NCBI GenBank assembly: GCA_947448885.1
Contig: CANFPJ010000010.1
Coordinates: 1 to 42,125 of the forward strand
From: Comamonadaceae bacterium
Lineage (GTDB): Bacteria > Pseudomonadota > Gammaproteobacteria > Burkholderiales > Burkholderiaceae_C
DNA: 42,125 nucleotides
Direction of reading: 5' to 3'
The notes under the pieces were generated by a model, which saw only the letters and a program-made list of their open reading frames with translations, had not been told where the DNA came from and ran no database searches. Positions 20,230-41,422 of the stretch are shown here, one piece after another. A program made the translations under genes and the position numbers. How positions within the stretch are numbered: position 1 is the first letter of the stretch; the number at the start of each line of letters is the position of its first letter.

Positions 20230-20796
20230 TCAGGCTTTGGGCAGGGTCACGCCCACTTGGCCTTGGTATTTGCCGCCCCGGTCTTTGTAACTGGTCTCGC
20301 AGACCTCGTCGCTCTCAAAGAACAACACCTGGGCACAGCCTTCGCCAGCATAAATCTTGGCCGGCAACGGGGTGGTGTTGGAAAACTCCAACGTGACATA
20401 GCCTTCCCACTCGGGCTCAAAAGGTGTCACATTGACAATGATTCCGCAGCGCGCGTAGGTGCTTTTGCCCAGGCAAATGGTCAGCACATTGCGTGGAATG
20501 CGAAAGTACTCCATGGTGCGCGCCAAGGCAAAACTGTTGGGCGGGATGATGCACACGTCGGCGGTGATGTCGACAAAGCTCTTTTCGTCAAAGTTCTTCG
20601 GGTCCACCACGGTGCTGTAAATGTTGGTGAACACCTTGAACTCGGGGGCGCAGCGGATGTCGTAGCCATAGCTGCTGGTGCCATAGCTGACAATTTTTTG
20701 CCCATTGACCTCTCGCACCTGGCCGGGCTCGAAGGGCTCGATCATGCCGTGCTGTTGCGCCATGCGGCGAATCCATTTGTCTGATTTGATGCTCAT
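20230..20796 (-). CDS. dcd: dCTP deaminase
   Basis: Converts dCTP to dUTP, the main source of dUMP for thymidylate synthesis in proteobacteria. It is 188 residues, the standard length, with [12 protein letters not shown] (about 37–48), [11 protein letters not shown] (about 109–119), the catalytic Glu segment [14 protein letters not shown] and the C-terminal GKYQGQ. There is no Shine-Dalgarno before the ATG at 20796. TAAAAT (20803–20808) would place the transcript start on or near the ATG, suggesting a leaderless mRNA. It is divergent from tcuA. Confidence 0.95.
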
Positions 20797-20871: not shown

Positions 20872-22305
20872 ATGAAAGACACTGCAATGACCCAAACCGT
20901 GTGGGACGTGATCGTGGTGGGGGGCGGCAATGCCGCCTTGTGCGCCGCGTTGACCGCCTGCGAAGCGGGCGCCAAAGTGCTGTTGCTCGAGGCCGCTCCC
21001 AAGGCGTGGCGCGGCGGCAACTCGGTGCACACCCGCAACCTGCGCTGCATGCACGATGCGCCCGAAGACGTGCTCACCGAGGCCTACCCAGAAGAAGAGT
21101 TCTGGCAAGACATGTTCAAGGTCACGGCGGGCAAAACCACCGAGCACCTGACCCGCTTGGTGATCCGCGAGTCCTCGCGCTGCCGCGATTGGATGCGCAG
21201 CCACGGTGTTCACTTTCAGCCCTCTTTGTCGGGCACCTTGCACCTGTCGCGCACCAATGCTTTTTTCATGGGTGGGGGCAAGGCCTTGATCAACGCCTAT
21301 TTCCGCAGCGCGGAAAAACTGGGCGTGGACATCCTGTACGAGACCGAAGTGGATCGCCTGGAGTGGGACGGTCCCCGCTTTGTCGCCGCTTGGGCGGGCG
21401 AGCGGCGGTTTGCCGCCCGCGCCTGCGTGGTCGCTTGTGGGGGCTACGAATCGAATATCCCTTGGCAACGCGAAGCCTGGGGCCAAAACCAATGGGGCGA
21501 GTGGACCGCCGACAACTTTTTGATCCGCGGCACCCGCTACAACATGGGCGTGCTGCTCAAGCACATGCTGGCCAGCGGGGCCGATGCCATTGGCGACCCC
21601 ACCCAAGCGCATTGCGTGGCGATTGATGCGCGCTCGCCCTTGTTTGACGGCGGCATCACCACCCGCTTGGACTGCGTGTCGCTGGGCATCATGGTCAACC
21701 AGCATGGCCAGCGTTTCTATGACGAGGGCGAAGACTTCTGGCCCAAGCGCTACGCCATTTGGGGCCGCTTGATCGCCGGCCAGCAAGGCCAAATTGGCTA
21801 CGCCATCATCGACGCCAAAGCGGTCGGTCGGTTCATGCCTTCGGTGTTTCCGCCCATCACCGCCAACAGCTTGCCCGAGTTGGCCGAAAAACTCGGTTTG
21901 AACCCCGACAGCTTGGTCAATACGGTGGCGCAATTCAACGCAGCTTGCGTGGAAGGCGAGTTCGACCATGCCGTGCTCGACAACTGCCACACCGAAGGCA
22001 TCACCCCCGCCAAAACCCACTGGGCGCGGCGCATCGACACACCGCCCTACCACGGCTACGCCTTGCGACCGGGCATCACCTTCACTTACCTGAGTGTCAA
22101 AGTCAATGACCAAGCGGCGGTGTTTGTGCGTGGCGAGCCCAGCCCCAACTTGTTTGCCGCGGGCGAGGTGATGTCGGGCAATGTGCTGGGCCAGGGCTAT
22201 ACCGCCGGGGTGGGCATGACCATCGGCACCATTTTTGGCCGGGTGGCCGGGCAACATGCGGCGCAAGCTGCTTTGCACCAGGGGGTGGACCATGTCGCAG
22301 CTTGA
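20872..22305 (+). CDS. tcuA: FAD-dependent tricarballylate dehydrogenase-like protein
   Basis: A 477-residue flavoprotein of the fumarate reductase/succinate dehydrogenase group. The N-terminal dinucleotide motif [15 protein letters not shown] (about 15–29) is followed by [10 protein letters not shown] at the flavin-binding loop and a C-terminal [19 protein letters not shown]. TcuA oxidises tricarballylate to cis-aconitate and needs TcuB to reoxidise its FAD; the pairing with tcuB here supports this group. The true substrate could be another carboxylate. The ATG at 20872 is used, with 20887 as a close alternative. The first gene of a rightward operon. Confidence 0.87.
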
Positions 22306-23479
22306 ATCGTTGCAAAGCCTCACCGACCAGGCCCGCGCCCTGGCACAAGGCGGCCTGCACATGGGGCCGGCCGAAGCCGAGGTGGCGCGCATCATGCAAA
22401 TTTGCAACGCCTGCCGCTATTGCGAAGGCTTTTGCGCGGTGTTTCCGGCCATGACGCGGCGCCTGGAATTCACCGCCGCCGACACCCATTACCTGGCCAA
22501 TTTGTGCCACAACTGCGGCGCCTGCTTGCACGCCTGCCAATACGCACCACCCAACCCGTTTGGCGTGAACGTGCCGCAATCGCTGGCGCAGGTTCGCGTC
22601 ACCACTTACGAGCGCTTTGCCTGGCCGCGCGCTTTGGGCACGCTGTACCAACGCAATGGCCTGACCGTGGCCTGGGCCTTGACCTTGTCCTTGGCCTTGT
22701 TTTTGACCGCCACCTTGGTCGTGCAAGGCACTTGGTGGCAAGCCATCGAAGGTGGCAACTTTTACGCCATCTTCCCGCACGGCTTGCTGGTGTGGATGTT
22801 TGCGCCGGTGTTTGCTTGGAGCGTGATCGCCCTGGGTCTGGGGGTGCGCGACTTTTGGCGCGCCGTGTTGCCCATGGACGGCCCCACACCCGCGCCCATC
22901 CACAGCGCAGCCAGTGCCGAAGCCGCGCACGATGCGCTGCGCTTGAAATACCTCGACGGCGGCCACGGCCTGGGTTGCAACGAGACCGATGACAGCACCA
23001 CCCTGTGGCGCAAGCGCTTTCACCACGCCACTTTTTACGGCTTCATGCTGTGCTTTGCGGCGACCAGCTTGGCCACGCTCTACCACTACGCTTTTGGCTG
23101 GGTGGCGCCCTACCCGATGACCAGCTTGCCGGTGCTGCTGGGCACTTTGGGCGGTGTGGGTTTGGTGGTCGGTCCCCTGGGCTTGCTGCGGCTCAACCTG
23201 CAACGCCACCCCGAGCATGGCGATGCCGCTCAAAAACCCATGGACCGCGCCTTCATTGCCCTGCTGTTTTTGTGTGGTGCCAGCGGCCTGGCCTTGCTGG
23301 CCCTGCGCGACACCGCCGCGCTGCCGCTGAGCTTGGCCATCCATTTGGCGGCGGTGATGGCGTTTTTTCTCACCATGCCGTATGGCAAGTTTGCCCATGG
23401 CATTTACCGCGTCGCCGCCTTGCTCAAATTTGCGATTGAAAAACGCTTGCCCAACCGCTTGCGCTTGGGCTCAGATTGA
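22292..23479 (+). CDS. tcuB: TcuB-type iron–sulfur membrane electron carrier
   Basis: A 395-residue protein that passes electrons from the TcuA flavin to the quinone pool. Two 4Fe-4S motifs of the form C-x2-C-x2-C-x3-C occur at the N terminus ([11 protein letters not shown] and [11 protein letters not shown]). They are followed by several membrane helices (about 125–145, 165–185, 245–265, 275–300, 325–345, 350–375) with haem-ligand candidates such as the HH in [10 protein letters not shown]. The start at 22292 has GGGGGTGG before it and overlaps the tcuA end by 14 bases, indicating coupled synthesis. The usual permease partner tcuC is absent. Confidence 0.88.
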
Positions 23480-23544
23480 GCGTGCCCTGAACCCAACCGA
23501 TCCCACACACCGCCAGAAAAATATTCCTCTGAAAGGACAACCCC

Positions 23545-24300
23545 ATGGACATGCAACTCAACCACAAAACCGCCTTGGTCACCGGCGCCTCGGTGGGCAT
23601 CGGCGAGGGCATTGCCCTGGCATTGGCGGCCGAGGGGGTGCAACTGGCCTTGACGGCGCGTCGGTTGGACAAGCTCCAAGCCGTGGCGGCGGCCATCGTG
23701 GCCGCTGGCGGCAAAGCGCCCATCTTGATTGCCCAAGACATGTACGCCGAAGATGCGGCCCAACAACTGAGCCAAGCGGCCCTCAAAGGCCTGGGCCGGG
23801 TGGATATCTTGATCAACAACGCCGGTGGCTCGCGCAGCTTCAAAGACCTGCACGTGAGTGAAGCCCAGTGGCAAGAGGCGATGACGCTGAACTTTCACCG
23901 CCCGCGCCAACTCGCCGACGCCTTGATCGACCAAATGATCGCCAACCGCTGGGGACGCATCATCAACATCACGGGCAAAAGCGAACCCGACCATGTGAAC
24001 GGCGCTTTTTGCGCCAAAGCGGGCATGCATTCCTGGGCCAAAGGCTTGTCACGCATGGTGGGGCCACACGGCATCACCGTCAATTGCGTGCCGCCCGGGC
24101 GCATCCACTCCGAGCAAATTTTTCGCAACTACACCCCTGAATACCGCCAGTGGCAATGCGAGAACGAAATTCCCATGGCGCGCTATGGCGAGCCCGAGGA
24201 CATGGCCAATTTGGTCACCTTTCTGGCCTCTCCCCGGGCCAGCTACATCACGGGTGCGGTCATCCCTGTCGATGGTGGCTTGCGCCGCTATCAGTTTTGA
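23545..24300 (+). CDS. SDR-family protein lacking the catalytic Tyr
   Basis: A 251-residue short-chain dehydrogenase fold: cofactor motif TGASVGIG (13–20), ARR at 38–40 (hinting at NADP), NNAG (91–94) and the C-terminal ITGAVIPVDGG. The active-site stretch reads NITGKSEP … NGAFCAKAG, so Lys158 is kept but the YxxxK tyrosine position is Ala154, and the loop from the Ser region is shortened. It may use a different mechanism or act as a non-redox isomerase or lyase. AAAGGA lies before the ATG; tcuB ends 65 bases upstream. Confidence 0.85.
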   Translation: MDMQLNHKTALVTGASVGIGEGIALALAAEGVQLALTARRLDKLQAVAAAIVAAGGKAPILIAQDMYAEDAAQQLSQAALKGLGRVDILINNAGGSRSFKDLHVSEAQWQEAMTLNFHRPRQLADALIDQMIANRWGRIINITGKSEPDHVNGAFCAKAGMHSWAKGLSRMVGPHGITVNCVPPGRIHSEQIFRNYTPEYRQWQCENEIPMARYGEPEDMANLVTFLASPRASYITGAVIPVDGGLRRYQF

Positions 24301-24353
24301 GCGCCGACCCAGACGCGTCCATTTCGCCAGCCCATTGAACGATCGGAACCCCC

Positions 24354-25358
24354 ATGCCCAACGCTGCCCCATCCATTGATGCGCTGTCGCGCCGTGCTTG
24401 GCTCCAAGGTGCAGGGGCTTTGGCCTGGGGGGCCACCTGGGGCACCGCACAGGCCAGCAACTGGCCGATCAAACCGGTGCGCTTTTTGGTCCCCTTTGCG
24501 CCCGGTGGCACCAGCGAAATCGTCGCCCGCTCGGTGGCCGCGGAGTTGACCAAAGGCCTGGGCCAATCGGTGTTTGTGGAAAACAAGCCGGGAGGTGCCG
24601 GCACCGTGGCCATGGTCGAGGCCGCCAAGTCGGTGCCCGATGGCCACACCCTCATCTTGGGACATGTGGGCACCTTGGCGGTCAACCCCTACATGTTGAG
24701 CAACCAGCCCTACGACGTGAACAAAGACTTCATGCCCGTGACCTTGCTGGCCAAGGTGCCCAATGTGTTTGTGATCCACCCCGACGTGCCGGCCAAAACC
24801 TTTCAAGAGTTCATCGCTTACGCCAAGAAAAACCCTGGCAAGCTCGACTACGGTTCGGCCGGAAACGCCAGCGCCGGGCACTTGGCGATGGAATACCTGA
24901 AACTCGTCACCGGCATCTCCATCACCCACATCCCCTACCGCGGCACGGGGCCGCAATTGGCCGACTTGTTGGCCGGCCGCACCCATGCCTCTTCGGCGGG
25001 ATTGCCCGCCCTGGGCGCCCACATCCGGGCGGGCAAACTGCGCGCGATTGCAGTCGGCACCCAGCAGCGCATTTCTGGTTTGCCCGACATCCCCACCGTG
25101 GCGGAAATGGGCTTCAAGGATTTTGAAACCGCCCAGTGGTACGGCATCTTGGTGCCCGCTGGCACGCCCGCCGATGTGGTGAAGAAGATCCAAGAAGAAA
25201 GCCTCAAAGCGCTCAAATCCAGCGCGGTCACCGAACGCTTTGCCACCGACAACGCCATTGGCGGCGGCGGCCCACCCAGCGAATTTGCCGCCTACATCGC
25301 CAAAGAGCAAAAGATATGGAGTCGCATCGTCAAAGATGCCCAAATTCGCGCCGACTGA
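24354..25358 (+). CDS. Bug/TctC solute-binding receptor
   Basis: A periplasmic carboxylate receptor of the tripartite tricarboxylate transporter family, 334 residues. The N terminus (SRRAWLQGAG … TAQA) resembles a Tat signal. The mature part has the Bug hallmarks: WPIKPVRFLVPFAPGGTSEIVARSVAAEL, VENKPGGAGTVA, and GSAGNASAGHLAMEYLK … HIPYRGTGPQLADLLAG. No tctA/tctB lie nearby, so it would have to work with membrane subunits elsewhere, such as those at 40.9 kb. Its position in the tcuAB operon suggests that it binds the pathway substrate. Confidence 0.9.
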   Translation: MPNAAPSIDALSRRAWLQGAGALAWGATWGTAQASNWPIKPVRFLVPFAPGGTSEIVARSVAAELTKGLGQSVFVENKPGGAGTVAMVEAAKSVPDGHTLILGHVGTLAVNPYMLSNQPYDVNKDFMPVTLLAKVPNVFVIHPDVPAKTFQEFIAYAKKNPGKLDYGSAGNASAGHLAMEYLKLVTGISITHIPYRGTGPQLADLLAGRTHASSAGLPALGAHIRAGKLRAIAVGTQQRISGLPDIPTVAEMGFKDFETAQWYGILVPAGTPADVVKKIQEESLKALKSSAVTERFATDNAIGGGGPPSEFAAYIAKEQKIWSRIVKDAQIRAD

Positions 25359-25401
25359 GGCGGCGCCCCTGCATAGCCTTCCCACCACTCCGGAGAACCC
25401 G

Positions 25402-25884
25402 ATGACACCCAAACCCCAAACCTACGATCCCCCCTTGCACCCGGTGAAGGCCGAAACCGCCATGCGCGACTTGGGCCAATGGCCGATTCAAAAGTTCCAC
25501 GTCAGCCACCTGGCCACTTCGGCGTTCAAGGGCGAGGGCCTGCGCCCCTACATCGTCTACCGCGATTTGGGTGCCAAGGAGGCCACGGGTGGATTGGTCG
25601 ACGCCCATGTGAATGCCCGCGGTCGGCCGTTTGATGAAAACGCCGTGAGCAAGCGCCATTTCCATGACGTCAAATTCCAAATGGTCTATGTGCTCAAAGG
25701 CTGGAACCGGGTCGAATTTGAAGGCCAAGGCGAACACATGATGGTCGCGGGCAGTTGCTGGATCCAACCGGCGGGCATCAAACACACCGTGCTGGAATAT
25801 TCAGACGACCTGGAGGTGCTGGAGATCATCATCCCGGGCACCTTTGACACCGTCACCGTTGACGAACCACCCGGCTTCGACTGA
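25402..25884 (+). CDS. Cupin-domain protein (paralogue 1)
   Basis: A 160-residue single-domain cupin. Metal-ligand candidates are His86 and His88 (RHFHD), followed by QMVYVLKG, where Gln93 stands in for the usual Glu. Motif 2 is GSCWIQPAGIKH (118–128), with His128. It shares FHVSHL, EATGG, HVN, QMVYVLKGW, GSCW.QP and SDDLE with the protein at 28273, a clear paralogue. CGGAG precedes the ATG at 25402. It is the last gene of the rightward operon. An isomerase, dioxygenase or lactonase-like role is possible; none is shown. Confidence 0.85.
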   Translation: MTPKPQTYDPPLHPVKAETAMRDLGQWPIQKFHVSHLATSAFKGEGLRPYIVYRDLGAKEATGGLVDAHVNARGRPFDENAVSKRHFHDVKFQMVYVLKGWNRVEFEGQGEHMMVAGSCWIQPAGIKHTVLEYSDDLEVLEIIIPGTFDTVTVDEPPGFD

Positions 25885-25906
25885 CCCACCCACCGGTCAA
25901 ACCAAT

Positions 25907-25928
25907 CTGCCCCCGTGGCTTGGGGCAG
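25907..25928. terminator. Terminator-like hairpin between converging operons
   Basis: CTGCCCC and GGGGCAG pair over 7 bp with an 8-base loop, 22 bases after the cupin stop and 11 before the aldolase stop. There is no T-run; it is probably bidirectional. Confidence 0.45.
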
Positions 25929-25939
25929 GCGCCTGGCGC

Positions 25940-26725
25940 TCAAGAACCGCTGACTTGCGCCTCGCGGTCCAAAGTTTGGGCCGCATGCGTGATGGCTTGC
26001 AGCAAGTAATTGGCGTCGTTGCTGCCCAGCAAAATGCGCGCACCCTGGGCCACCAGTTGCGCCACGGGCGGACCACCCGCATCGCCACACACAAAGTGTT
26101 TGCCAGCGCCCACCGCCGCCCTCAAGCTGGTGTCGTAAGCGGCCAAGATGCGCGGGTGGCGCAACTCGCCGGGGATGCCCAGCTCCAAGCTCAAGTCCAT
26201 CGGCCCCATCATCAAGGCATCCACGCCAGGCACCGCGGCAATGGCGTGCGCCTGGTCCAAGCCCGATTGGGTTTCGATCATGGCCACCACCATCACCGCT
26301 GCATTGCGTTGCACCAGCGAGTCTTTGGCGGGCACGCGCTGATAAGCGGAGGTCGGCCCCAAAGCGGCCATGGACCGATGGCCTTGGGGCGGATAGCGGC
26401 ACAGGTCCACGGCCAGTGCGGCTTCTTGGGGGTTGTTGACATGCGGCAAGATGATGCCCTGCGCGCCTGCGTCAAGCACCGGGCCGATCGCCCCCACGGT
26501 TGCGCTGTGCACCCGCACCCAAGGCGTGAGGCCACAGGCCTGGGCCATTTGGCACAGATCGGAAATATCGCGCAGGCTGTACATGCCATGTTCGGCATCG
26601 ATGTAAAAACCATCGAAGCCAGCGACCTTGAGCATTTGCACCACATCGATGTGGTGGCTCAAGCGCAGGGACATCAACTTGACCGTTTCACCGGCGGCGA
26701 GTTTGAGTTGCAAGAGATTGGACAT
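25940..26725 (-). CDS. HpcH/HpaI-family aldolase
   Basis: A 261-residue class II (metal-dependent) aldolase that cleaves 4-hydroxy-2-oxo acids or similar compounds to pyruvate (or oxaloacetate) plus an aldehyde. Seen are YIDAEHG (41–47, with metal/catalytic Glu-His), WVRVH with Arg71, the glycine-rich AGAQGIILPHVNN (86–98), the metal ligand Glu151 in MIETQSG and Asp177 in GPMDLS. It is the last gene of a leftward operon, where it would supply the terminal C–C cleavage. A start at 26743, sharing a base with the upstream stop, is equally possible. Confidence 0.85.
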   Translation of the reverse strand: MSNLLQLKLAAGETVKLMSLRLSHHIDVVQMLKVAGFDGFYIDAEHGMYSLRDISDLCQMAQACGLTPWVRVHSATVGAIGPVLDAGAQGIILPHVNNPQEAALAVDLCRYPPQGHRSMAALGPTSAYQRVPAKDSLVQRNAAVMVVAMIETQSGLDQAHAIAAVPGVDALMMGPMDLSLELGIPGELRHPRILAAYDTSLRAAVGAGKHFVCGDAGGPPVAQLVAQGARILLGSNDANYLLQAITHAAQTLDREAQVSGS

Positions 26726-26742
26726 GGGACTTTCGGCGCGCA

Positions 26743-27540
26743 TCAAAGCTTGATCACGGGCGGCGCATAACCGCGCGCGGCAAAGCCCGCGTCCACCGTG
26801 ATCACATGGCCTGATATGGCGCTGGCTTTGGGCGAACACGCAAAGGCCACCACATCGGCGATTTCATCGGGCTGGATCAAATGCCCGCGCGGGAAGTGGG
26901 CGGTCAATTCGCGCCAGCGGTTTTCATCGCACAACTCTTGGGTGGCGCGGCGCTTGAGGGTGCGTTTGGCTTTTTCGGTTTCGACCCAACCGGGGCTGAC
27001 CCCCAGGATGCGCACGCCGTGGTCCAGGCTCACGCTGCCCAGGGTTTTGGTCAAGGCCACCAAGGCGGCATTGCCCATCGAACCTGCGGCGTAAGCGTAT
27101 TCCAACTTTTCAGCGCCAATGCCAATCACATTCACGATCACGCCGCGCTGGCGCTTGAACATCTCGCGGTAAACGGCGCGGGTCAGGTTGATGTAGCCAA
27201 AAATTTTCAGCTCCCACCCTTGCCGCCAAGTGGCCTCGTCGACTTCAAACAAAGTGCCACGTGGGGTGTTGCCCGCGTTGTTGACCAAGATGTCGATGGG
27301 CCCGCAATCGGCGGCCAATTGGTTGGCCACACCCGGCTGGCTCAAGTCCAGCGCATGGGTGTGCACGGCCACACCGTGGGCTTGTGTCAATTCTTGGGCC
27401 AAGGCAGTCAAGACCTCGGGGTTGCGCGCCGCCAAATGCAAATTGCAGCCCTCGCGGGCCAGTGCGATGGCGATCGCGCGGCCAATGCCTTGCGATGCAC
27501 CGGTGACCAGCGCGGTTTGTTGTTTCAGTCCCAAATCCAT
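26743..27540 (-). CDS. SDR-family protein lacking the catalytic Lys
   Basis: A 265-residue short-chain dehydrogenase fold with TGASQGIG (13–20), AARN at 37–40, NNAG (87–90) and a C-terminal ISGHVITVDAG. The active-site region reads EYAYAAGSMGNAAL: Tyr150 is present, but the YxxxK lysine position is Ser154, and the structural Asn of helix 4 is replaced (ELKIFGY). GAGG, overlapping the preceding stop, sits six bases before the ATG. It is translationally coupled to both neighbours. It may be a non-canonical oxidoreductase. Confidence 0.85.
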   Translation of the reverse strand: MDLGLKQQTALVTGASQGIGRAIAIALAREGCNLHLAARNPEVLTALAQELTQAHGVAVHTHALDLSQPGVANQLAADCGPIDILVNNAGNTPRGTLFEVDEATWRQGWELKIFGYINLTRAVYREMFKRQRGVIVNVIGIGAEKLEYAYAAGSMGNAALVALTKTLGSVSLDHGVRILGVSPGWVETEKAKRTLKRRATQELCDENRWRELTAHFPRGHLIQPDEIADVVAFACSPKASAISGHVITVDAGFAARGYAPPVIKL

Positions 27541-27548
27541 GGTCTGCC

Positions 27549-28283
27549 TCAGGCGCGGGGGGGGCGCAGTTCGATCAAATCCGGGCTGTTGGACGCTTGG
27601 CATGAGACCGCATAGACCACCCCATCGGCCACGTCTTGCGCCGAAATGGGTTGGTAGGGCCGCGCCGCCAAAGCTTTGAGCACATCGGGGTGGGTGATGC
27701 CTTTGCGCATGTCGGTATCGACCATGCCCGGGGCCAGTTCGGTGACCCGCACATTGGCGCTTTTGAGCTCCAAGCGAAAGCCTTTGGCAAAAGCCGATAC
27801 CGCGTGCTTGGTGGCGGCATACACCACCGCATGCATGCCCACATTGCGCGCCGAGCCCGAGGTGATGAAGATCATGTGGCCACCACCGCGCGCCACCATG
27901 TGCTGGGCCACTTCGCGCGAAATGTCGTAACAAGCGATCACGTTGGTGGCGAACATCTGCTCGCATTCTTCAACCGGCATGTCCAAAATGGGCGCGTAGT
28001 TCAAGATGCCTGCGTTGTTCACAAACACATCGGCGTCGTGCGCGGTTTGCGCCAACTGGCGCACAAAGGGTTTGTCATTCAAGTCACCGGCCAGGGCCAC
28101 CACTTGAACACCTTTGGCGCGGCATTCTTGGGCCACGGCTTCGAGTTCGGCCACTTTGCGACCGGTCAGGACCAAATGCACGCCGCATTCAGCCAAAGAG
28201 ATGGCGCTGGCGCGGCCAATGCCGGCGCTGGCGCCGGTGATCAACGCGCGTTTGCCGCGCATGGCATCGAGCTTATCGCGCAT
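27549..28283 (-). CDS. Short-chain dehydrogenase/reductase, canonical
   Basis: A 244-residue SDR with TGASAGIG, TGRK (cofactor selectivity loop, suggestive of NADP), NNAG, the catalytic Ser (FITSGSAR) and VYAATKHA, with the intact Tyr and Lys. It would oxidise or reduce a hydroxyl/keto group of the pathway intermediate. GGAGGAG stands just before the ATG at 28283, and the start overlaps the cupin gene by 11 bases. Eight bases separate its stop from the next gene. Confidence 0.88.
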   Translation of the reverse strand: MRDKLDAMRGKRALITGASAGIGRASAISLAECGVHLVLTGRKVAELEAVAQECRAKGVQVVALAGDLNDKPFVRQLAQTAHDADVFVNNAGILNYAPILDMPVEECEQMFATNVIACYDISREVAQHMVARGGGHMIFITSGSARNVGMHAVVYAATKHAVSAFAKGFRLELKSANVRVTELAPGMVDTDMRKGITHPDVLKALAARPYQPISAQDVADGVVYAVSCQASNSPDLIELRPPRA

Positions 28284-28794
28284 GGGGGGCTCCTCCTGCT
28301 GGATCGGGCGTGCCCTTGGGCGGCTCGTTGAGGTTGATCGTGTCGTAATTGGCGGGGATGATGACTTCCAAAATTTCCAGGTCATCGGAAAAGCCGAGCA
28401 CCGTGTGCTTGATGCGCGGCGGCTGCAACCAGCAGCTGCCCTCTTTCATCAGGTGCTCGCCATGGCCTTCGAATTCACTGCGCACCCAACCCTTGAGCAC
28501 GTACACCATTTGGTAGTGAACATTGTGAAAGTGGCGGTGCGCGATTTCTGCGGGGTCGTAGGGTTTGGCGCGGCGGTTGACATGCACGTCCACCATGCCG
28601 CCCGTGGCCTCGATCATGCCCATGTCGCGGGACAAAGCCCAGGGCCGGAATCCATCGGTTTTGAAAGAGCCTTCACCGAGGTGGCTGACGTGAAAAGCTT
28701 GGGGGGGCCAATCGGGATAAGGGCTTGCTTTTTTGTCCTGCGGATAGTCCGCTTCTTTGTAAACCTTGAAGTCCCTGGGGGCTGTTTTTTCCAT
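28273..28794 (-). CDS. Cupin-domain protein (paralogue 2)
   Basis: A 173-residue cupin, paralogous to the protein at 25402 over its whole length. The metal histidines are His88 and His90 (HRHFHN) and His130 (PPRIKH); Gln95 occupies the expected Glu position, exactly as in the other copy. A slightly longer N terminus and a Pro/Gly/Ala tail distinguish it. It is the first gene of the leftward operon cupin–SDR–SDR–aldolase, and is divergent from the SDR at 28868 across 73 AT-rich bases. Confidence 0.85.
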   Translation of the reverse strand: MEKTAPRDFKVYKEADYPQDKKASPYPDWPPQAFHVSHLGEGSFKTDGFRPWALSRDMGMIEATGGMVDVHVNRRAKPYDPAEIAHRHFHNVHYQMVYVLKGWVRSEFEGHGEHLMKEGSCWLQPPRIKHTVLGFSDDLEILEVIIPANYDTINLNEPPKGTPDPAGGAPHAR

Positions 28795-28867
28795 TTTGAT
28801 TATCTCGCATCGTGGGATTTTTTCATCTTATGTTAATCTCATTTGGGTGTCAATCTGGAGAACCAAC

Positions 28868-29608
28868 ATGACCATCCGCAACCAGTCCATCCTCATTACC
28901 GGCGCTGCATCAGGCATCGGCAAAGCCTGCGCCGAATTGTTTGCCCGAGAGGGCGCACGCTTGGTGTTGGCCGATCGAAACGAGGCCGCTTTGCAAACGC
29001 TCAGCGCTTCGCTGCGCAGCCAAACGCCATCGGTGCACAGCATGGCTTTTGACGTGGGCGACGCCAACCAATGCAAAGCCTTGGTCGATCTCACTGTGGC
29101 GCAACATGACCGCATCGATGTGCTGATCCATGCCGCCGGCATTTGCCTGGCTTGCCCCCTGCTCGAGATGAGCGACGACCAATGGCGCGAGACCTTGCGC
29201 GTCAATTTGGATGGCAGTTTTTTCATCACCCGCGAAGTGGCCAAAGCCATGGTGCCCCAAAAGAGCGGCACCATGGTGTTGCTCACCTCCGACCGCGGCT
29301 TGTATGGCAGCCAAACCTATGCACACTATGCGGCGTCCAAAGGCGGCATGATTGCCCTGACCAAAAGCCTGGCGCTGAGCCTGGGCCAATACGGCATCAC
29401 CGTCAATGGCTTGAACCCCGGCATGACCGACACCCCACTCGCGCGCGACGCCAACCCCCACCTGTGGGACGAAAAAATGGCGCTCGATGTGCTGGGCTCG
29501 GCCAACCTGCCCGAGCAAGCGGCACAAACCTTGTTGTATTTGGCCGGTGTGGGGGGCCGCTTCACCACCGGGCAAATTTTGGGCACCCGCTTGCGCCACG
29601 GTCAATGA
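28868..29608 (+). CDS. Short-chain dehydrogenase/reductase
   Basis: A 246-residue SDR with TGAASGIG (about 11–18) and an ADRN loop that suggests NAD. HAAG stands where NNAG is usual, and the canonical active site has Ser (LLTSDRG) and YAASK. The C terminus (FTTGQILGTRLRHG) is unusual in lacking the common DGG. GGAG, eight bases before the ATG at 28868, sets the start; the frame is open further upstream without similarity. It is the first gene of a two-SDR operon. Confidence 0.87.
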   Translation: MTIRNQSILITGAASGIGKACAELFAREGARLVLADRNEAALQTLSASLRSQTPSVHSMAFDVGDANQCKALVDLTVAQHDRIDVLIHAAGICLACPLLEMSDDQWRETLRVNLDGSFFITREVAKAMVPQKSGTMVLLTSDRGLYGSQTYAHYAASKGGMIALTKSLALSLGQYGITVNGLNPGMTDTPLARDANPHLWDEKMALDVLGSANLPEQAAQTLLYLAGVGGRFTTGQILGTRLRHGQ

Positions 29609-29632
29609 ACACACACCCACAGAAAGACACCC

Positions 29633-30415
29633 ATGCTCCAAGGTAAATCTGCCCTGATCACCGGCTCGTTGGGGGGCATTGGTTTTGAAATCGCTGCGGC
29701 CCTGGCGCGCCAAGGTTGCAGCGTCTTGATCAATGGCTTTGGCGACGATGCCTTGATCCAAAACCAGTTGCAGGTGTTGCGCGACACCGGTGCCCAAGCC
29801 CACTACCACGGCGCAGACATCTCCAAACCCGAAGACATCGACGCCATGGTGCTTGAGGCCGAGCGGCTGTATGGCCATGTCGACATCTTGGTCAACAACG
29901 CAGTGACGCGCCACGATGCGACCATTGAAAACCTATCTCCCGACAAATGGGCGTATGCGCTGGCGGTCAATTTGAGTGCACCCTACCACTTCATGCACCG
30001 TTTGGTGCCCGGCATGAAAGCGCGCAATTGGGGCCGCATCATCAACTTGGCGTCCATCTATGGCGTGGAAGGCACGGCCAACCGCAGCGACTATGTGGCC
30101 ACCAAGCACGGCTTGGTGGGGCTGACCAAGGTGGTGGCCTTGGAATGCGCCGAGTACCACATCACCTGCAATGCGCTGTGCCCGGCTGCCGTGCACACGC
30201 CGCACTTGAAACAACTCATCACCCAAAGGGCGCGAGACGCGGGTGTCAGCGAAGAGGCCTTGACCGCAGACTTTTTGAAAGCCCGCCAACCCTCCAAGCG
30301 CTTTGTTCAGCCCAGCAAGGTGGGGGCTTTGGCGGCCTTTTTGTGCAGCGAGGATGCGGGTGACATCACCGGCACGCCCATTCCCATCGATGGGGGCTGG
30401 CAAGCCCGGGCTTGA
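29633..30415 (+). CDS. Short-chain dehydrogenase, 3-hydroxybutyrate dehydrogenase-like
   Basis: A 260-residue SDR. Compared with common SDRs it resembles D-3-hydroxybutyrate dehydrogenases: LQGKSALITGSLGGIG (cofactor motif), NNAV, INLASIYGVEGTANRSDYVATKHGLVGLTK (catalytic Ser, Tyr, Lys), CPAAVHTPHL, and a late ITGTPIPIDGGW. The 3-hydroxybutyrate assignment is by resemblance only; in this cluster it may act on a branched or carboxylated hydroxy acid. It starts 24 bases after the preceding SDR and converges with the receptor gene. Confidence 0.87.
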   Translation: MLQGKSALITGSLGGIGFEIAAALARQGCSVLINGFGDDALIQNQLQVLRDTGAQAHYHGADISKPEDIDAMVLEAERLYGHVDILVNNAVTRHDATIENLSPDKWAYALAVNLSAPYHFMHRLVPGMKARNWGRIINLASIYGVEGTANRSDYVATKHGLVGLTKVVALECAEYHITCNALCPAAVHTPHLKQLITQRARDAGVSEEALTADFLKARQPSKRFVQPSKVGALAAFLCSEDAGDITGTPIPIDGGWQARA

Positions 30416-30442
30416 GCACCGGCCTGCCGACCCCTGGCCCGA

Positions 30443-31417
30443 TCACTCGGGTTTGATCTTGGCGTAGCGCACGACTTCGCTCCACACCGCCAAGTCATCA
30501 CGGATCATGCTGGCAAAACGACCAGGGCTGCTGCTGGTGTCGATCTCGTTGGCGGTGGGCATGAGCTTGTCTTGGATATCGGGACGGGCCATCACTTTGT
30601 TGAAGGCATGGGCCAAGCGCTCGGCAATTGGTGCCGGCAGGCCTTTGGGGCCGAACACGCCATTCCAGTAGCTGGCATTGAAATTTCTAAAACCCAACTC
30701 CTCCATGGTGGGGATCTCCGGCGCCACCGCCAATCGCGATTTGCTGGTCACGGCCACCGCCTTGACCTTGCCGTCTTTGGCCGGGGCCAAAGCGGTCGAG
30801 GCCACCGCAAAGTGAAACGCCACCCGGCCTGAAATTTGTTCGAGCATGGCTTGCGGGGAGCCCTTCATCGGTACCGCTGTGGCCTCGATGCCGGTGCGGG
30901 CGCGAAACAATTCGGCCACAAAGTGCGAGGGTGCACCATGGCCCGAGGTGGCATAAAACATATCGCCTTTTTTGGCCTTGGCCAAGGCCACCAGGTCTTG
31001 GGGTGACTTGATGTCGAGCGATGGGTGGGCCACCAACACCATGGGTGACGAAAACACATTCACCACCGGGGTGAACGAGTCGGGCATGCTGTACTGGGTG
31101 GGCGTGCCCATGGCGGCGAGCATGTTCATCGCCGCCGAGTTGAACAACAAGGTGTAGCCATCGGGCGCGGCATTGGCCACCATCACCGAGCCCAAGGCCC
31201 CAGCGGCGCCGGCGCGGTTTTCAATGATCACCGGCTGACCCAACTCCACGCGCAAAGCCTCAGAGATGTGGCGCATCACGATGTCAATGCCACTGGCGGG
31301 GGGCCAGGCCACCACCATGCGAATGGGTTTATTGGGGTAATCGCTTTGGGCCATCACGCCCACACAGGCCAATGACAAAACCAATGCCAGGCTGCGGCGG
31401 GTCAAACGTTTCAACAT
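30443..31417 (-). CDS. Bug/TctC solute-binding receptor, orphan
   Basis: A 324-residue periplasmic receptor with a Sec signal (MLKRLTRRSLALVLSLACVGVMAQS) and Bug family features: YPNKPIRMVVAWPPASGIDIV, IENRAGAAGALGSVMVA, DGYTLLFNS and SYWNGVFGPKGLP. The usual PGGxxD loop reads PPASGID, a change in the ligand-binding loop. GGAG, seven bases before the ATG at 31417, fixes the start. It lies alone, at the right-hand edge of the catabolic island, with no membrane subunits beside it. Confidence 0.88.
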   Translation of the reverse strand: MLKRLTRRSLALVLSLACVGVMAQSDYPNKPIRMVVAWPPASGIDIVMRHISEALRVELGQPVIIENRAGAAGALGSVMVANAAPDGYTLLFNSAAMNMLAAMGTPTQYSMPDSFTPVVNVFSSPMVLVAHPSLDIKSPQDLVALAKAKKGDMFYATSGHGAPSHFVAELFRARTGIEATAVPMKGSPQAMLEQISGRVAFHFAVASTALAPAKDGKVKAVAVTSKSRLAVAPEIPTMEELGFRNFNASYWNGVFGPKGLPAPIAERLAHAFNKVMARPDIQDKLMPTANEIDTSSSPGRFASMIRDDLAVWSEVVRYAKIKPE

Positions 31418-31531: not shown

Positions 31532-32572
31532 TCACGCACCGAAGGCCACAAAACAGGCATCCAGCTGTGCCACCCATGCTTGCTTTTGGGCCGGTGGCAC
31601 AAAGCTGGCCTCAAAGCTGTTGCGCGCGAGTTGGTAGGCATGCCCAGCATTCAAGGGCAAGGCGGCAAAGGTTTGCAAAAAGTTCTCATTGATGTAACCG
31701 CCAAAGTAGGCCGGGTCATCGGAATGCAATGAGGCGCACAAGCCCGCGTCCAACAAAGCCGGTAAATTGTGCGCAGCCAGATCGGGAAACACGCACAGCT
31801 TGATGTTGGACAGCGGGCACACCGTCAAGGGCGTGTGTTCCAGCGCCAGTCGCTGCATCAAAGCGGCGTCTTTCGTGGCTTGTACCCCGTGGTCAATGCG
31901 CTCGGCATGCAAGCCATCCAAGGCCGACCAGATGTACGCTGGTGGCCCCTCCTCGCCCGCATGGGCCACGCAGTGAAAACCCAACTGACGTGCGCGCGCA
32001 AAAACGCGCACAAATTTTTCTGGTGGATGCCCCACTTCGCTGGAATCCAATCCCACACCCAGGATTTGGTCGCGAAACGGCATGGCTTGTTCCAAGGTGT
32101 CGAAAGCCTCGTCTTCGCTCAAATGGCGCAAGAAACACATGATCAATTGCGCATCCATGCCCCACTTTGTGCGCGCGTCTTCACAAGCGCGGTGCAAACC
32201 ACTGACCACGGTGCGCATGGACACGCGGCGCTGGGTATGGGTTTGCGGATCAAAAAAGATCTCGGCATGCACCACATGGTCGGCGGCAGCGCGCTCAAAG
32301 TAAGCCCACGCCAAGTCATAAAAATCTTGCGGTTGCTGCAGCACGCTGGCCCCAGCGTAATAAATATCCAGAAAGCTTTGCAAGTGGGTGAACGCATAAG
32401 CCTCGCGCACCGCCGCCACATCCGCATGCGCCAATCGCACCTGGTTGCGCCGGGCCAGCTCAAACATCAGCTCGGGCTCCAGGCTGCCCTCGATGTGCAA
32501 ATGCAACTCGGCCTTGGGCATGGCGCACAACAGTTCTGGCAAGCGGGCTGGGTCGATGGCGGAAAAATTCAT
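31532..32572 (-). CDS. Adenine deaminase (adenosine deaminase superfamily)
   Basis: A 346-residue Zn hydrolase that most likely turns adenine into hypoxanthine and ammonia. Zinc ligands are His24/His26 (ELHLHIEGSLEPELMFELA), His204 and Asp285, with Glu207 and His228 in the active site (HAGEEGP, RIDHG). LDSSEVGHPPEKF and DDPAYFGGY are, from memory, traits of bacterial adenine rather than adenosine deaminases (PA0148 type). GGAGG precedes the ATG at 32572. It is downstream of the purine ABC importer, though a strong terminator intervenes. Confidence 0.85.
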   Translation of the reverse strand: MNFSAIDPARLPELLCAMPKAELHLHIEGSLEPELMFELARRNQVRLAHADVAAVREAYAFTHLQSFLDIYYAGASVLQQPQDFYDLAWAYFERAAADHVVHAEIFFDPQTHTQRRVSMRTVVSGLHRACEDARTKWGMDAQLIMCFLRHLSEDEAFDTLEQAMPFRDQILGVGLDSSEVGHPPEKFVRVFARARQLGFHCVAHAGEEGPPAYIWSALDGLHAERIDHGVQATKDAALMQRLALEHTPLTVCPLSNIKLCVFPDLAAHNLPALLDAGLCASLHSDDPAYFGGYINENFLQTFAALPLNAGHAYQLARNSFEASFVPPAQKQAWVAQLDACFVAFGA

Positions 32573-32647
32573 AGAGCGCCTCCAATACAAACGCTGGGCA
32601 GGTCAAAGGTGGTCGTGATTTTGCCGTAGGCGTGTCGCGACCCCATC

Positions 32648-39967: not shown

Positions 39968-40942
39968 ATGATGCGCCGTAACTTTTCTCGTTCACTGGTT
40001 GCCCTGTGTTTGGGGCTGGGATGTGCCACTGTGTCGGTTGCCCAAAACTACCCATCGCGACCCATCACCATGGTGGTTCCTTGGGGCGCCGGGGGCGGCA
40101 CCGATGCCACCGCACGCATCGTCGCTGCACTGATGGAAAAAGAATTGGGACAGCCGGTCAACGTGGTCAACCGCACCGGGGGCAACGGGGTGGTGGGCCA
40201 CTCGGCCATTGCCACGGCCCCCGCCGACGGTTACACCCTGGGCATGATCACGGTGGAAATCTCCATGATGCACTGGGCGGGTTTGACCGATCTCAAACCG
40301 ACCAACTACACGCCCCTTGCTTTGATGAACATCGACCCCGCAGCGGTCACGGTGCGGGCCGACTCACCCTACAAAACCGTCAACGATTTGCTGGCGGCCA
40401 TCAAGGCCAACCCGGGCAAATTCAAGGCCTCGGGCACCGGTCAAGGCGGCATTTGGCATTTGGCTTTGGCGGGCATGCTGAAAGACCAAAAGATGGAAAT
40501 CAGTGCCGCCCCTTGGGTGCCGTCCAACGGTGCCGCACCCGCCATGAACGACTTGGCGGCGGGCGGTATCGAATTTGTCACTTGCTCTTTGCCTGAATCT
40601 CGCGCATTGATCGACGCGGGCAAAGCCAGGCCCTTGACCATCATGGCCAACCAAGCCTCTGGCCTGTACCCGAATGTCCCCACCCTCAAAACCGCCACCG
40701 GCAGCAATTGGGCCATCGGTGCTTGGCGCGGCATTGCCGGCCCCAAGGGCTTGCCCGCCGATGTCCAGGGCAAGCTGGGTGCGGTGCTGAAAAAGATATA
40801 TGACAGCCCCGACTACCAAGGCTTCATGCAGCAACGCGGTTTTGGGGTGGTGTATGCCGATGCCAAAGGCTTCGAGCAATTCATGGCCAAAGGCGACGCA
40901 GACATGGGCACGGTCATGAAGTCTTTGGGCTTGGCCAAGTAA
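39968..40942 (+). CDS. tctC: Tripartite tricarboxylate transporter receptor
   Basis: A 324-residue periplasmic Bug/TctC receptor with a Sec signal (about 1–25, ending VAQ). It has the hallmarks YPSRPITMVVPWGAGGGTDATARIV, VNRTGGNGVVG, DGYTLGMITVE and WRGIAGPKGLP. It stands directly before tctB and tctA and so is the dedicated receptor of this transporter. AGGAG at about 39953–39957 precedes the ATGs at 39968 and 39971; either may be used. The ligand is a carboxylate of unknown identity. Confidence 0.92.
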   Translation: MMRRNFSRSLVALCLGLGCATVSVAQNYPSRPITMVVPWGAGGGTDATARIVAALMEKELGQPVNVVNRTGGNGVVGHSAIATAPADGYTLGMITVEISMMHWAGLTDLKPTNYTPLALMNIDPAAVTVRADSPYKTVNDLLAAIKANPGKFKASGTGQGGIWHLALAGMLKDQKMEISAAPWVPSNGAAPAMNDLAAGGIEFVTCSLPESRALIDAGKARPLTIMANQASGLYPNVPTLKTATGSNWAIGAWRGIAGPKGLPADVQGKLGAVLKKIYDSPDYQGFMQQRGFGVVYADAKGFEQFMAKGDADMGTVMKSLGLAK

Positions 40943-40948
40943 ACCGGC

Positions 40949-41422
40949 ATGAAGTTCAACGATGTGGTCAGTGGCGGGGTGCTGTTGGCCCTGTCCCTGC
41001 TGATCTTGTTGACCGTCAAAGACTACCCCGACATCCCTGGGCAAAACATCGGGCCCGGTGCCTTCCCCGGTTTGTTGGCGGCCTTGCTGGCGGTGTGTGC
41101 GGTGCTGCTGATGGTCAAAGGCTTGCGAACACAGCGGCACATCCCTTGGTTGGTGTGGGGCGAGTGGATGAAATCCAGGTTTCACCTGCGCAACTTTTGC
41201 ATCACCGTGGGCTGCTTGGTTTTTTACATTGCCGCCTCGGACTTCTTGGGTTTTTTGATTTGCAGCACGGTGGTTTTGTCCACCATGTTCATCGCCTTGC
41301 GGGTTCGGTGGAGCTGGGTGCTGCCGATGTCCCTCATCGTGACCTTGGTCGTGCACACCATTTTTTACAAAGCCCTGCGAGTCCCATTGCCCTGGGGCGT
41401 CCTGGTGCCCATCCAGTGGTGA
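40949..41422 (+). CDS. tctB: Tripartite tricarboxylate transporter small subunit
   Basis: A 157-residue inner-membrane protein with four hydrophobic helices (about 8–24, 41–58, 80–106, 118–142). The first periplasmic loop reads IPGQNIGPGAFPGL, the TctB signature. It pairs with TctA in sodium- or proton-driven uptake. It begins six bases after tctC and ends 25 bases before tctA. Confidence 0.9.
   Translation: MKFNDVVSGGVLLALSLLILLTVKDYPDIPGQNIGPGAFPGLLAALLAVCAVLLMVKGLRTQRHIPWLVWGEWMKSRFHLRNFCITVGCLVFYIAASDFLGFLICSTVVLSTMFIALRVRWSWVLPMSLIVTLVVHTIFYKALRVPLPWGVLVPIQW

Follow-up and report, generated by a model that had tools for sequence, protein, structure and literature searches.

We analyzed a 42,125-nucleotide stretch of DNA (the window), which is contig C10 (CANFPJ010000010.1) of a draft genome of a Comamonadaceae bacterium (3.35 Mb, 88% complete). 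Positions 20872-31417 of the window are filled by 12 genes and are flanked by dcd and add. An initial annotation of this DNA had listed tcuA, tcuB, five genes of the short-chain dehydrogenase/reductase (SDR) family, two paralogous cupins, an HpcH/HpaI aldolase, and two TctC receptors in about 10.5 kb, and we confirmed all 12 of these genes. It had also proposed that they form one undescribed island for the catabolism of a carboxylate, with all of the genes in a single pathway. We think instead that two separately inherited catabolic modules, A and B, have come to be neighbors between dcd and add (with a probability of roughly 0.6). The genes are as follows, with each receptor assigned to the tripartite tricarboxylate transporter (TTT) family.

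20872-22305, + strand: tcuA, FAD-dependent tricarballylate dehydrogenase family (NF006130, 730 bits, cut-off 369; TIGR02485, 644 bits, over the cut-off); module A
22292-23479, + strand: tcuB, 4Fe-4S membrane partner of TcuA (NF011607, 648 bits, cut-off 524; TIGR02484, 405 bits, over the cut-off); module A
23545-24300, + strand: SDR1, SDR fold without the catalytic Tyr (PF13561; GAFCAK replaces YxxxK); module A
24354-25358, + strand: TctC1, orphan TTT receptor (PF03401, 247 bits); module A
25402-25884, + strand: cupin1 (PF07883; adjoins HpcH in relatives with module B); module B
25940-26725, - strand: HpcH/HpaI-family aldolase, or HpcH for short (PF03328, 97 bits, cut-off 25); module B
26743-27540, - strand: SDR2, SDR fold without the catalytic Lys (NF004779, 335 bits, cut-off 261; YAAGS replaces YxxxK); module B
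27549-28283, - strand: SDR3, canonical SDR (PF00106; YxxxK); module B
28273-28794, - strand: cupin2 (PF07883); module B
28868-29608, + strand: SDR4, canonical SDR (PF00106; YxxxK); module B, often absent
29633-30415, + strand: SDR5, canonical SDR of the 3-hydroxybutyrate dehydrogenase subfamily (NF009093, 273 bits, cut-off 258); module B, often absent
30443-31417, - strand: TctC2, orphan TTT receptor (PF03401, 182 bits); module B
20230-20796, - strand: dcd, left flank, outside the modules (TIGR02274, 163 bits, cut-off 92.8)
31532-32590, - strand: add, adenosine deaminase, right flank, outside the modules (NF006850, 543 bits, cut-off 419)

The strands confirm the turning points that had been reported for the operons, at about 25.9 kb (convergent), 28.8 kb (divergent), and 30.4 kb (convergent). 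From tcuA to TctC2, adjacent genes are spaced by -14 to +73 bp: there are overlaps of 14 bp between tcuA and tcuB and of 11 bp between SDR3 and cupin2, and the divergent cupin2 and SDR4 are separated by 73 bp. TcuA and TcuB both exceed the equivalog cut-offs of NCBIfam, and at the level of sequence their family assignments are firm. Each of the cupins has just a generic match to Cupin_2. The stretch does not encode a complete TTT transporter, as neither TctA nor TctB is found within 20872-31417. A tctC-tctB pair (PF03401 and PF07331) lies at the right end of the window (39968-41422), 8.5 kb past the island; tctA may follow it beyond the window, and the pair could serve the orphan receptors.

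Module A comprises tcuA, tcuB, SDR1, and TctC1. With a threshold of E ≤ 1e-80, we found tcuA in 42 of 150 genomes from the family and in 48 of 84 genomes from the genus (these counts include the window's genome and some partial matches). We compared the neighborhoods of tcuA, 10-20 kb each (L061-L080 and L137-L156), for 40 of the 87 other genomes with tcuA: the 20 best matches in the family and 20 chosen among the genus genomes, with the five genomes that have module B among the latter. Six of these 40 loci had an ortholog of SDR1 (74-82% identity), and in 7 an ortholog of TctC1 (72-84% identity) was near tcuAB. Depending on the genome, SDR1-TctC1 lies 5' or 3' of tcuAB. Because SDR1-TctC1 was kept near tcuAB despite the change of order, we think that the four genes are functionally linked. 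No cupin, HpcH, SDR2, SDR3, SDR4, SDR5, or TctC2 with at least 50% identity was present in any of the 40 loci (0/40), and the best match to HpcH among them was 37% identical.

Module A also occurs next to add, with no B between them. In G165 (L190), a close relative, tcuB-SDR1-TctC1 is followed 83 bp further by add; this contig begins inside tcuB, and the genome is 81% complete. G165 had no match to HpcH at E ≤ 1e-45 and one partial match to a cupin (52%). When positions 1-2584 of L190 are compared with 22744-25358 of the window, SDR1 is 97% identical, TctC1 is 91% identical, and tcuB is 85% identical, while add is 78% identical. Judging from these identities, module A of G165 is closer to the window's than its neighbor add is, a hint that lineages may have exchanged A. 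Module A is also directly against add in G161 (L137) and G159 (L138), where dcd is on another contig.

Around tcuAB in relatives, we also saw aldolase genes of other kinds. L133 (7308-11393) has genes for TctC, an HpcH homolog (about 40%), and Amidohydro_2, followed by tcuA and tcuB, all in one direction, and tcuAB is paired with HpcH in L130 and L132 as well. Genes of the class II aldolase/adducin type are next to or near tcuAB at 11928-12764 of L061, 8410-9195 of L080, and 3163-3933 of L152.

Module B comprises cupin1, HpcH-SDR2-SDR3-cupin2, SDR4-SDR5, and TctC2. HpcH was found at E ≤ 1e-60 (51-100% identity) in 7 of the 84 genus genomes, including the window's. In the genus stretches, cupin1 faces HpcH-SDR2-SDR3-cupin2, and TctC2 and, in part, SDR4-SDR5 are present as well. 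The search with HpcH covered the family sample and the genus; beyond these, we scanned contigs from GTDB with an alignment of the cupins. This gave 13 loci, and 11 of them carry B, whole or cut by the end of the contig. (We excluded L168 and L169, which have the cupin alone.) With L166 merged with L162, the 11 loci represent 10 genomes besides the window's: six are genus genomes from the HpcH search, and the other four are new.

The arrangement of module B varies. L163 and L164 have co-directional operons (cupin2-SDR3-SDR2-HpcH-TctC2), and in L167 the genes cupin1-SDR3-SDR2-HpcH-TctC2-SDR4-SDR5 are all co-directional. In L165, the sequence stops after cupin1-SDR3-SDR2. Upstream of the operon, L164, L165, and L167 have a divergent gene of the LysR type, and L163 has a class II aldolase/adducin gene. 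SDR4-SDR5 is absent from L158, L159, L163, and L164. The core of module B is a cupin, SDR3, SDR2, HpcH, and TctC2, and frequent additions are a second cupin and SDR4-SDR5. When the five core proteins are compared pairwise across nine genomes (36 pairs), their identities correlate at 0.76-0.98, which is partly due to the relatedness of the genomes. Overall, 11 genomes, including the window's, retain the content of B, with several different flanks and with rearranged orientation. We considered the mirrored layout of the operons as a functional feature and rejected this. Because the B genes are co-directional in L163, L164, and L167, we consider the mirrored layout to be incidental.

The two modules are found apart far more often than together. 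tcuA is absent from the fetched stretches of all ten of the other genomes with module B, but this absence is weak for L157, whose contig starts 27 bases before cupin1, and for L164 and L165, which have little upstream sequence. In G184, G188, G189, G209, and G229, B is present and tcuA is on a different contig, without orthologs of SDR1 or TctC1. G162 has no match to tcuA, but that genome is just 57% complete. So, in the relatives that we compared, the whole gene set is not co-conserved, and one pathway from all of the genes does not hold up: A occurs without B (at the six loci with SDR1, and in G165) and B occurs without A (in ten genomes). What survives of the undescribed island is a conserved gene set of carboxylate type for which we found no description in the open-licence literature that we searched (an absence there is weak evidence); we read it as two modules and not one island.

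The site between dcd and add is empty in some relatives. In 18 of the 84 genus genomes, the matches to dcd and add are at most 785 bp apart, with the same order and orientation as in the window, and for 17 of those 18 the distance is at most 68 bp. In a nineteenth genome (G155), they are 2.6 kb apart, and in the remaining genus genomes dcd and add are apart, are on separate contigs, or were not both found. L173 and L174 have the order helicase-dcd-add-bmp-permease-ABC, and the island is absent. In G162, B is against add and bmp, and this region is collinear with the window over 6.3 kb, with 83% identity. The junction of TctC1 and add has thus either gained or lost B, and the draft genomes fit both directions. 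We considered a recent mobile origin and found no sign of it: the ends on the dcd side and the add side share at most 7 bases as a direct match and 8 bases as an inverted one, the G+C content of A and B (0.625 and 0.605) is like that of the flanks (0.625 and 0.604), and there is no tRNA in the window.

The SDRs had been expected to carry out hydroxyl/keto steps, which remains plausible for three of the five. SDR3, SDR4, and SDR5 have the classical dehydrogenase motif, and YxxxK is kept in 11/11, 6/6, and 6/6 sequences, respectively. SDR1 and SDR2 do not have this motif: at the YxxxK position, SDR1 has no Tyr and has GAFCAK instead (in 8/8 orthologs checked), and SDR2 has YAAGS, with Ser for Lys (in 10/10 checked). 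The nearest solved relative of SDR2, 6jh7, likewise has no Tyr at the aligned positions. SDR1 would be an accessory protein of module A and is probably not a standard dehydrogenase.

HpcH matches the PF03328 superfamily and does not reach the cut-offs for the HpaI/GarL/RhmA subfamilies (116, 99, 94, and 81 bits vs. 369, 393, 407, and 441). The homolog in L163 is also below the cut-offs for specific aldolase subfamilies. The nearest structures to HpcH are 3qz6, YfaU, GarL, and HpaI. Like the pyruvate aldolases HpaI, GarL, and YfaU, it belongs to this Pfam family, and it aligns with them at the Glu by which 4tv5 and 4tv6 differ; unlike them, it has no assigned subfamily (81-116 bits vs. cut-offs of 369-441).

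In cupin2, His88, His90, and His130, which we take to be metal ligands, are conserved in 41/41 aligned relatives, and Gln95 is conserved in 39/41. (The alignment contains cupins from 39 of 47 stretches, plus cupin1 and cupin2.) Conserved histidines of the cupin motif are what is expected of a metal-binding cupin. With just 12 close sequences, the structural model of cupin2 was of no use (mean pLDDT 38), and a model from the 41 sequences reached 84.5. The closest solved relative in both sequence and fold is 2o8q from Burkholderia xenovorans (sequence E = 1.8e-21, Foldseek E = 7e-11), but it is about 33% identical and has no known function. After 2o8q, the next folds are phosphomannose isomerase, KdgF, DddK, and RemF, which match about equally, and these matches to a predicted structure do not settle the reaction. 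We considered KdgF as the identity of cupin2 and did not adopt it, given the sequence E value of 0.008 and the several other cupin enzymes that match the fold equally. Relatives of the cupin are also found on plasmids (9 records, each with less than 80% coverage of the query), and the module was not seen in the three of the nine that we inspected.

If the stretch is two modules side by side, then module A can be understood by itself. According to PMC10468695, TcuA oxidizes tricarballylate to cis-aconitate, and its partner TcuB acts as an FADH2:quinone oxidoreductase. In the window, TctC1 would import a tricarballylate-like acid, TcuA would dehydrogenate it, and TcuB would hand the electrons to quinone. 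The product would enter the TCA cycle (as cis-aconitate, if the substrate is tricarballylate). Because cis-aconitate is an intermediate of the TCA cycle, the known product of TcuA requires no aldolase and nothing from module B. As compared to the tcuABC system of Salmonella, the window's TcuA and TcuB score above the equivalog cut-offs, but tcuAB is not adjacent to a tcuC-type transporter and is instead accompanied by a TctC receptor and an SDR-fold protein.

Our best reading of module B is that it is a small carboxylate-catabolic operon, with a receptor, a metal cupin, SDRs, and a retro-aldol step. It would be a self-contained pathway, and some relatives have a LysR-type regulator gene ahead of it. 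In this pathway, TctC2 would bind a small hydroxy- or oxo-carboxylate; SDR3, along with SDR4 and SDR5 where present, would adjust hydroxyl or keto groups; the metal cupin would isomerize or ring-open an intermediate; and HpcH would cleave a 4-hydroxy-2-oxoacid to a carbonyl compound and pyruvate or a similar 2-oxoacid. What the sequences show directly is the gene content, its conservation, the occurrence of each module without the other, and the lost motifs; for both modules, we infer all of the chemistry and the order of the steps. The hints as to the substrate of B diverge: relatives of the aldolase favor sugar acids, while the neighborhoods of the cupins elsewhere lean towards aromatic catabolism.

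Several observations weigh against our reading of two modules. Among the 150 family genomes, HpcH was found at E ≤ 1e-60 in just one, which is the window's own. The aldolase in L167 is merely 37% identical, so its function may differ, and the window's own B has no LysR gene. A and B are adjacent only in the window's genome, but in G162 a contig end removes the left side of B; with that truncation, and with so little sequence upstream of B in L164 and L165, the adjacency could exist in other genomes too. Five genus genomes (G154, G197, G199, G212, and G218) have tcuA within about 1 kb of an HpcH homolog that is 39-41% identical to the window's, and TcuAB may feed aldolase routes in some relatives, via aldolases other than the window's HpcH. 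These five genomes lean towards the initial annotation, in which TcuAB was joined to a retro-aldol step.

A more specific idea about module B, which we hold as a tentative and rather doubtful one, is that it encodes an undescribed pathway of the Comamonadaceae in which SDR2 (and, in A, SDR1), having lost the canonical SDR residues for catalysis, performs a non-redox step. This chemistry would be a hydration, an isomerization, or a C-C step, between the metal cupin and the HpcH aldolase. The operon would come in interchangeable versions, each starting with one of the cupin paralogs and serving one of two related substrates or of two stereoisomers; it is headed by cupin2 in L163 and L164 and by cupin1 in L165 and L167.

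Module B might also be a route for a sugar acid or an unsaturated uronate, with KdgF-like ring opening, an SDR resembling DEH reductase, cleavage of a 2-keto-3-deoxy acid by HpcH, and import by TctC2. HpcH is related to aldolases for 2-keto-3-deoxy sugar acids, and KdgF, despite its weak sequence match, is among the nearer folds to cupin2 that have a known function. There is a precedent in Vibrio, where a TTT imports alginate oligosaccharides: the alginate locus of Vibrio sp. C42 (PMC13390454) combines a TTT receptor, a cupin (KdgF), a reductase (DehR), and an aldolase (Eda). The window differs from that locus by having an HpcH-family aldolase and a cupin that is weakly KdgF-like, and no lyase, KDG kinase (KdgK), or Eda is found in the annotated stretches (no genome-wide search for them was made). 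Since phosphomannose isomerase, DddK, and RemF fit the cupin fold about as well, and 2o8q fits better, we consider this route unlikely.

As for one integrated pathway, it would run from uptake by TctC through dehydrogenation by TcuAB, hydroxyl/keto steps by the SDRs, and the cupin to a final retro-aldol cleavage by HpcH. The genes are tightly adjacent, and cupin1 starts just 43 bp 3' of TctC1 on the same strand. The pairing of tcuA with other HpcH homologs in five genus genomes fits this idea (with Amidohydro_2 between them in L133), and so do the class II aldolase/adducin-type gene clusters, which are present in 10/41 and 5/41 tcuA stretches. But those other aldolases are 39-41% identical or are from another family, the known product of TcuA does not need an aldolase, and the modules are usually apart. 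We consider a single pathway to be improbable.

It seems similarly improbable that B handles an aromatic-derived or alicyclic acid. In the same genome, contig C11 has a pair of genes similar to SDR3 and the cupin (47% and 46%; L083, 8722-10149) near genes for a Rieske oxygenase, a gluconolactonase, an AMDase-type protein, and an AMP ligase, and two plasmid relatives of the cupin are beside VOC and FAH genes (pBB2) or VOC and hydroxylase genes (pA29BJ2). However, the annotated stretches with module B have no oxygenase or ring hydrolase inside B, and a third plasmid relative has no aromatic genes annotated nearby.

Finally, the genes could be neighbors by chance and functionally unconnected, even inside each module. 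The abundance of TctC (125) and SDR (53) genes in this genome speaks for this, but it is very unlikely: it is already contradicted for each module, as the content of B persists across differing flanks and orientations and A is kept with a changed order, and it applies at most to the junction of A and B. Given a Poisson model (λ = 0.39), the chance of at least two TctC genes per 10.5 kb is about 0.06, so there is nothing remarkable about the two TctCs. In contrast, five SDRs in 7 kb are not due to chance under the Poisson model (P ~ 1e-7 per stretch of that size, from the 53 PF13561 genes), which is generous because catabolic genes cluster anyway.

For a genome of just 3.35 Mb, 125 TctC genes amount to a large expansion. 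Rhodoplanes also has many TctC genes, in an expansion of orphan TTT receptors, but with 434 of them in 8.2 Mb (PMC5994714). More broadly, a plausible story of one pathway fell apart once relatives were compared, so adjacency can mislead. Bacteria such as this one carry over 100 solute receptors without an assigned ligand. In module B, one such receptor is linked to an aldolase, a cupin, and SDRs within a small unit that recurs in 11 genomes, which makes it tractable for identifying the ligand that is imported.

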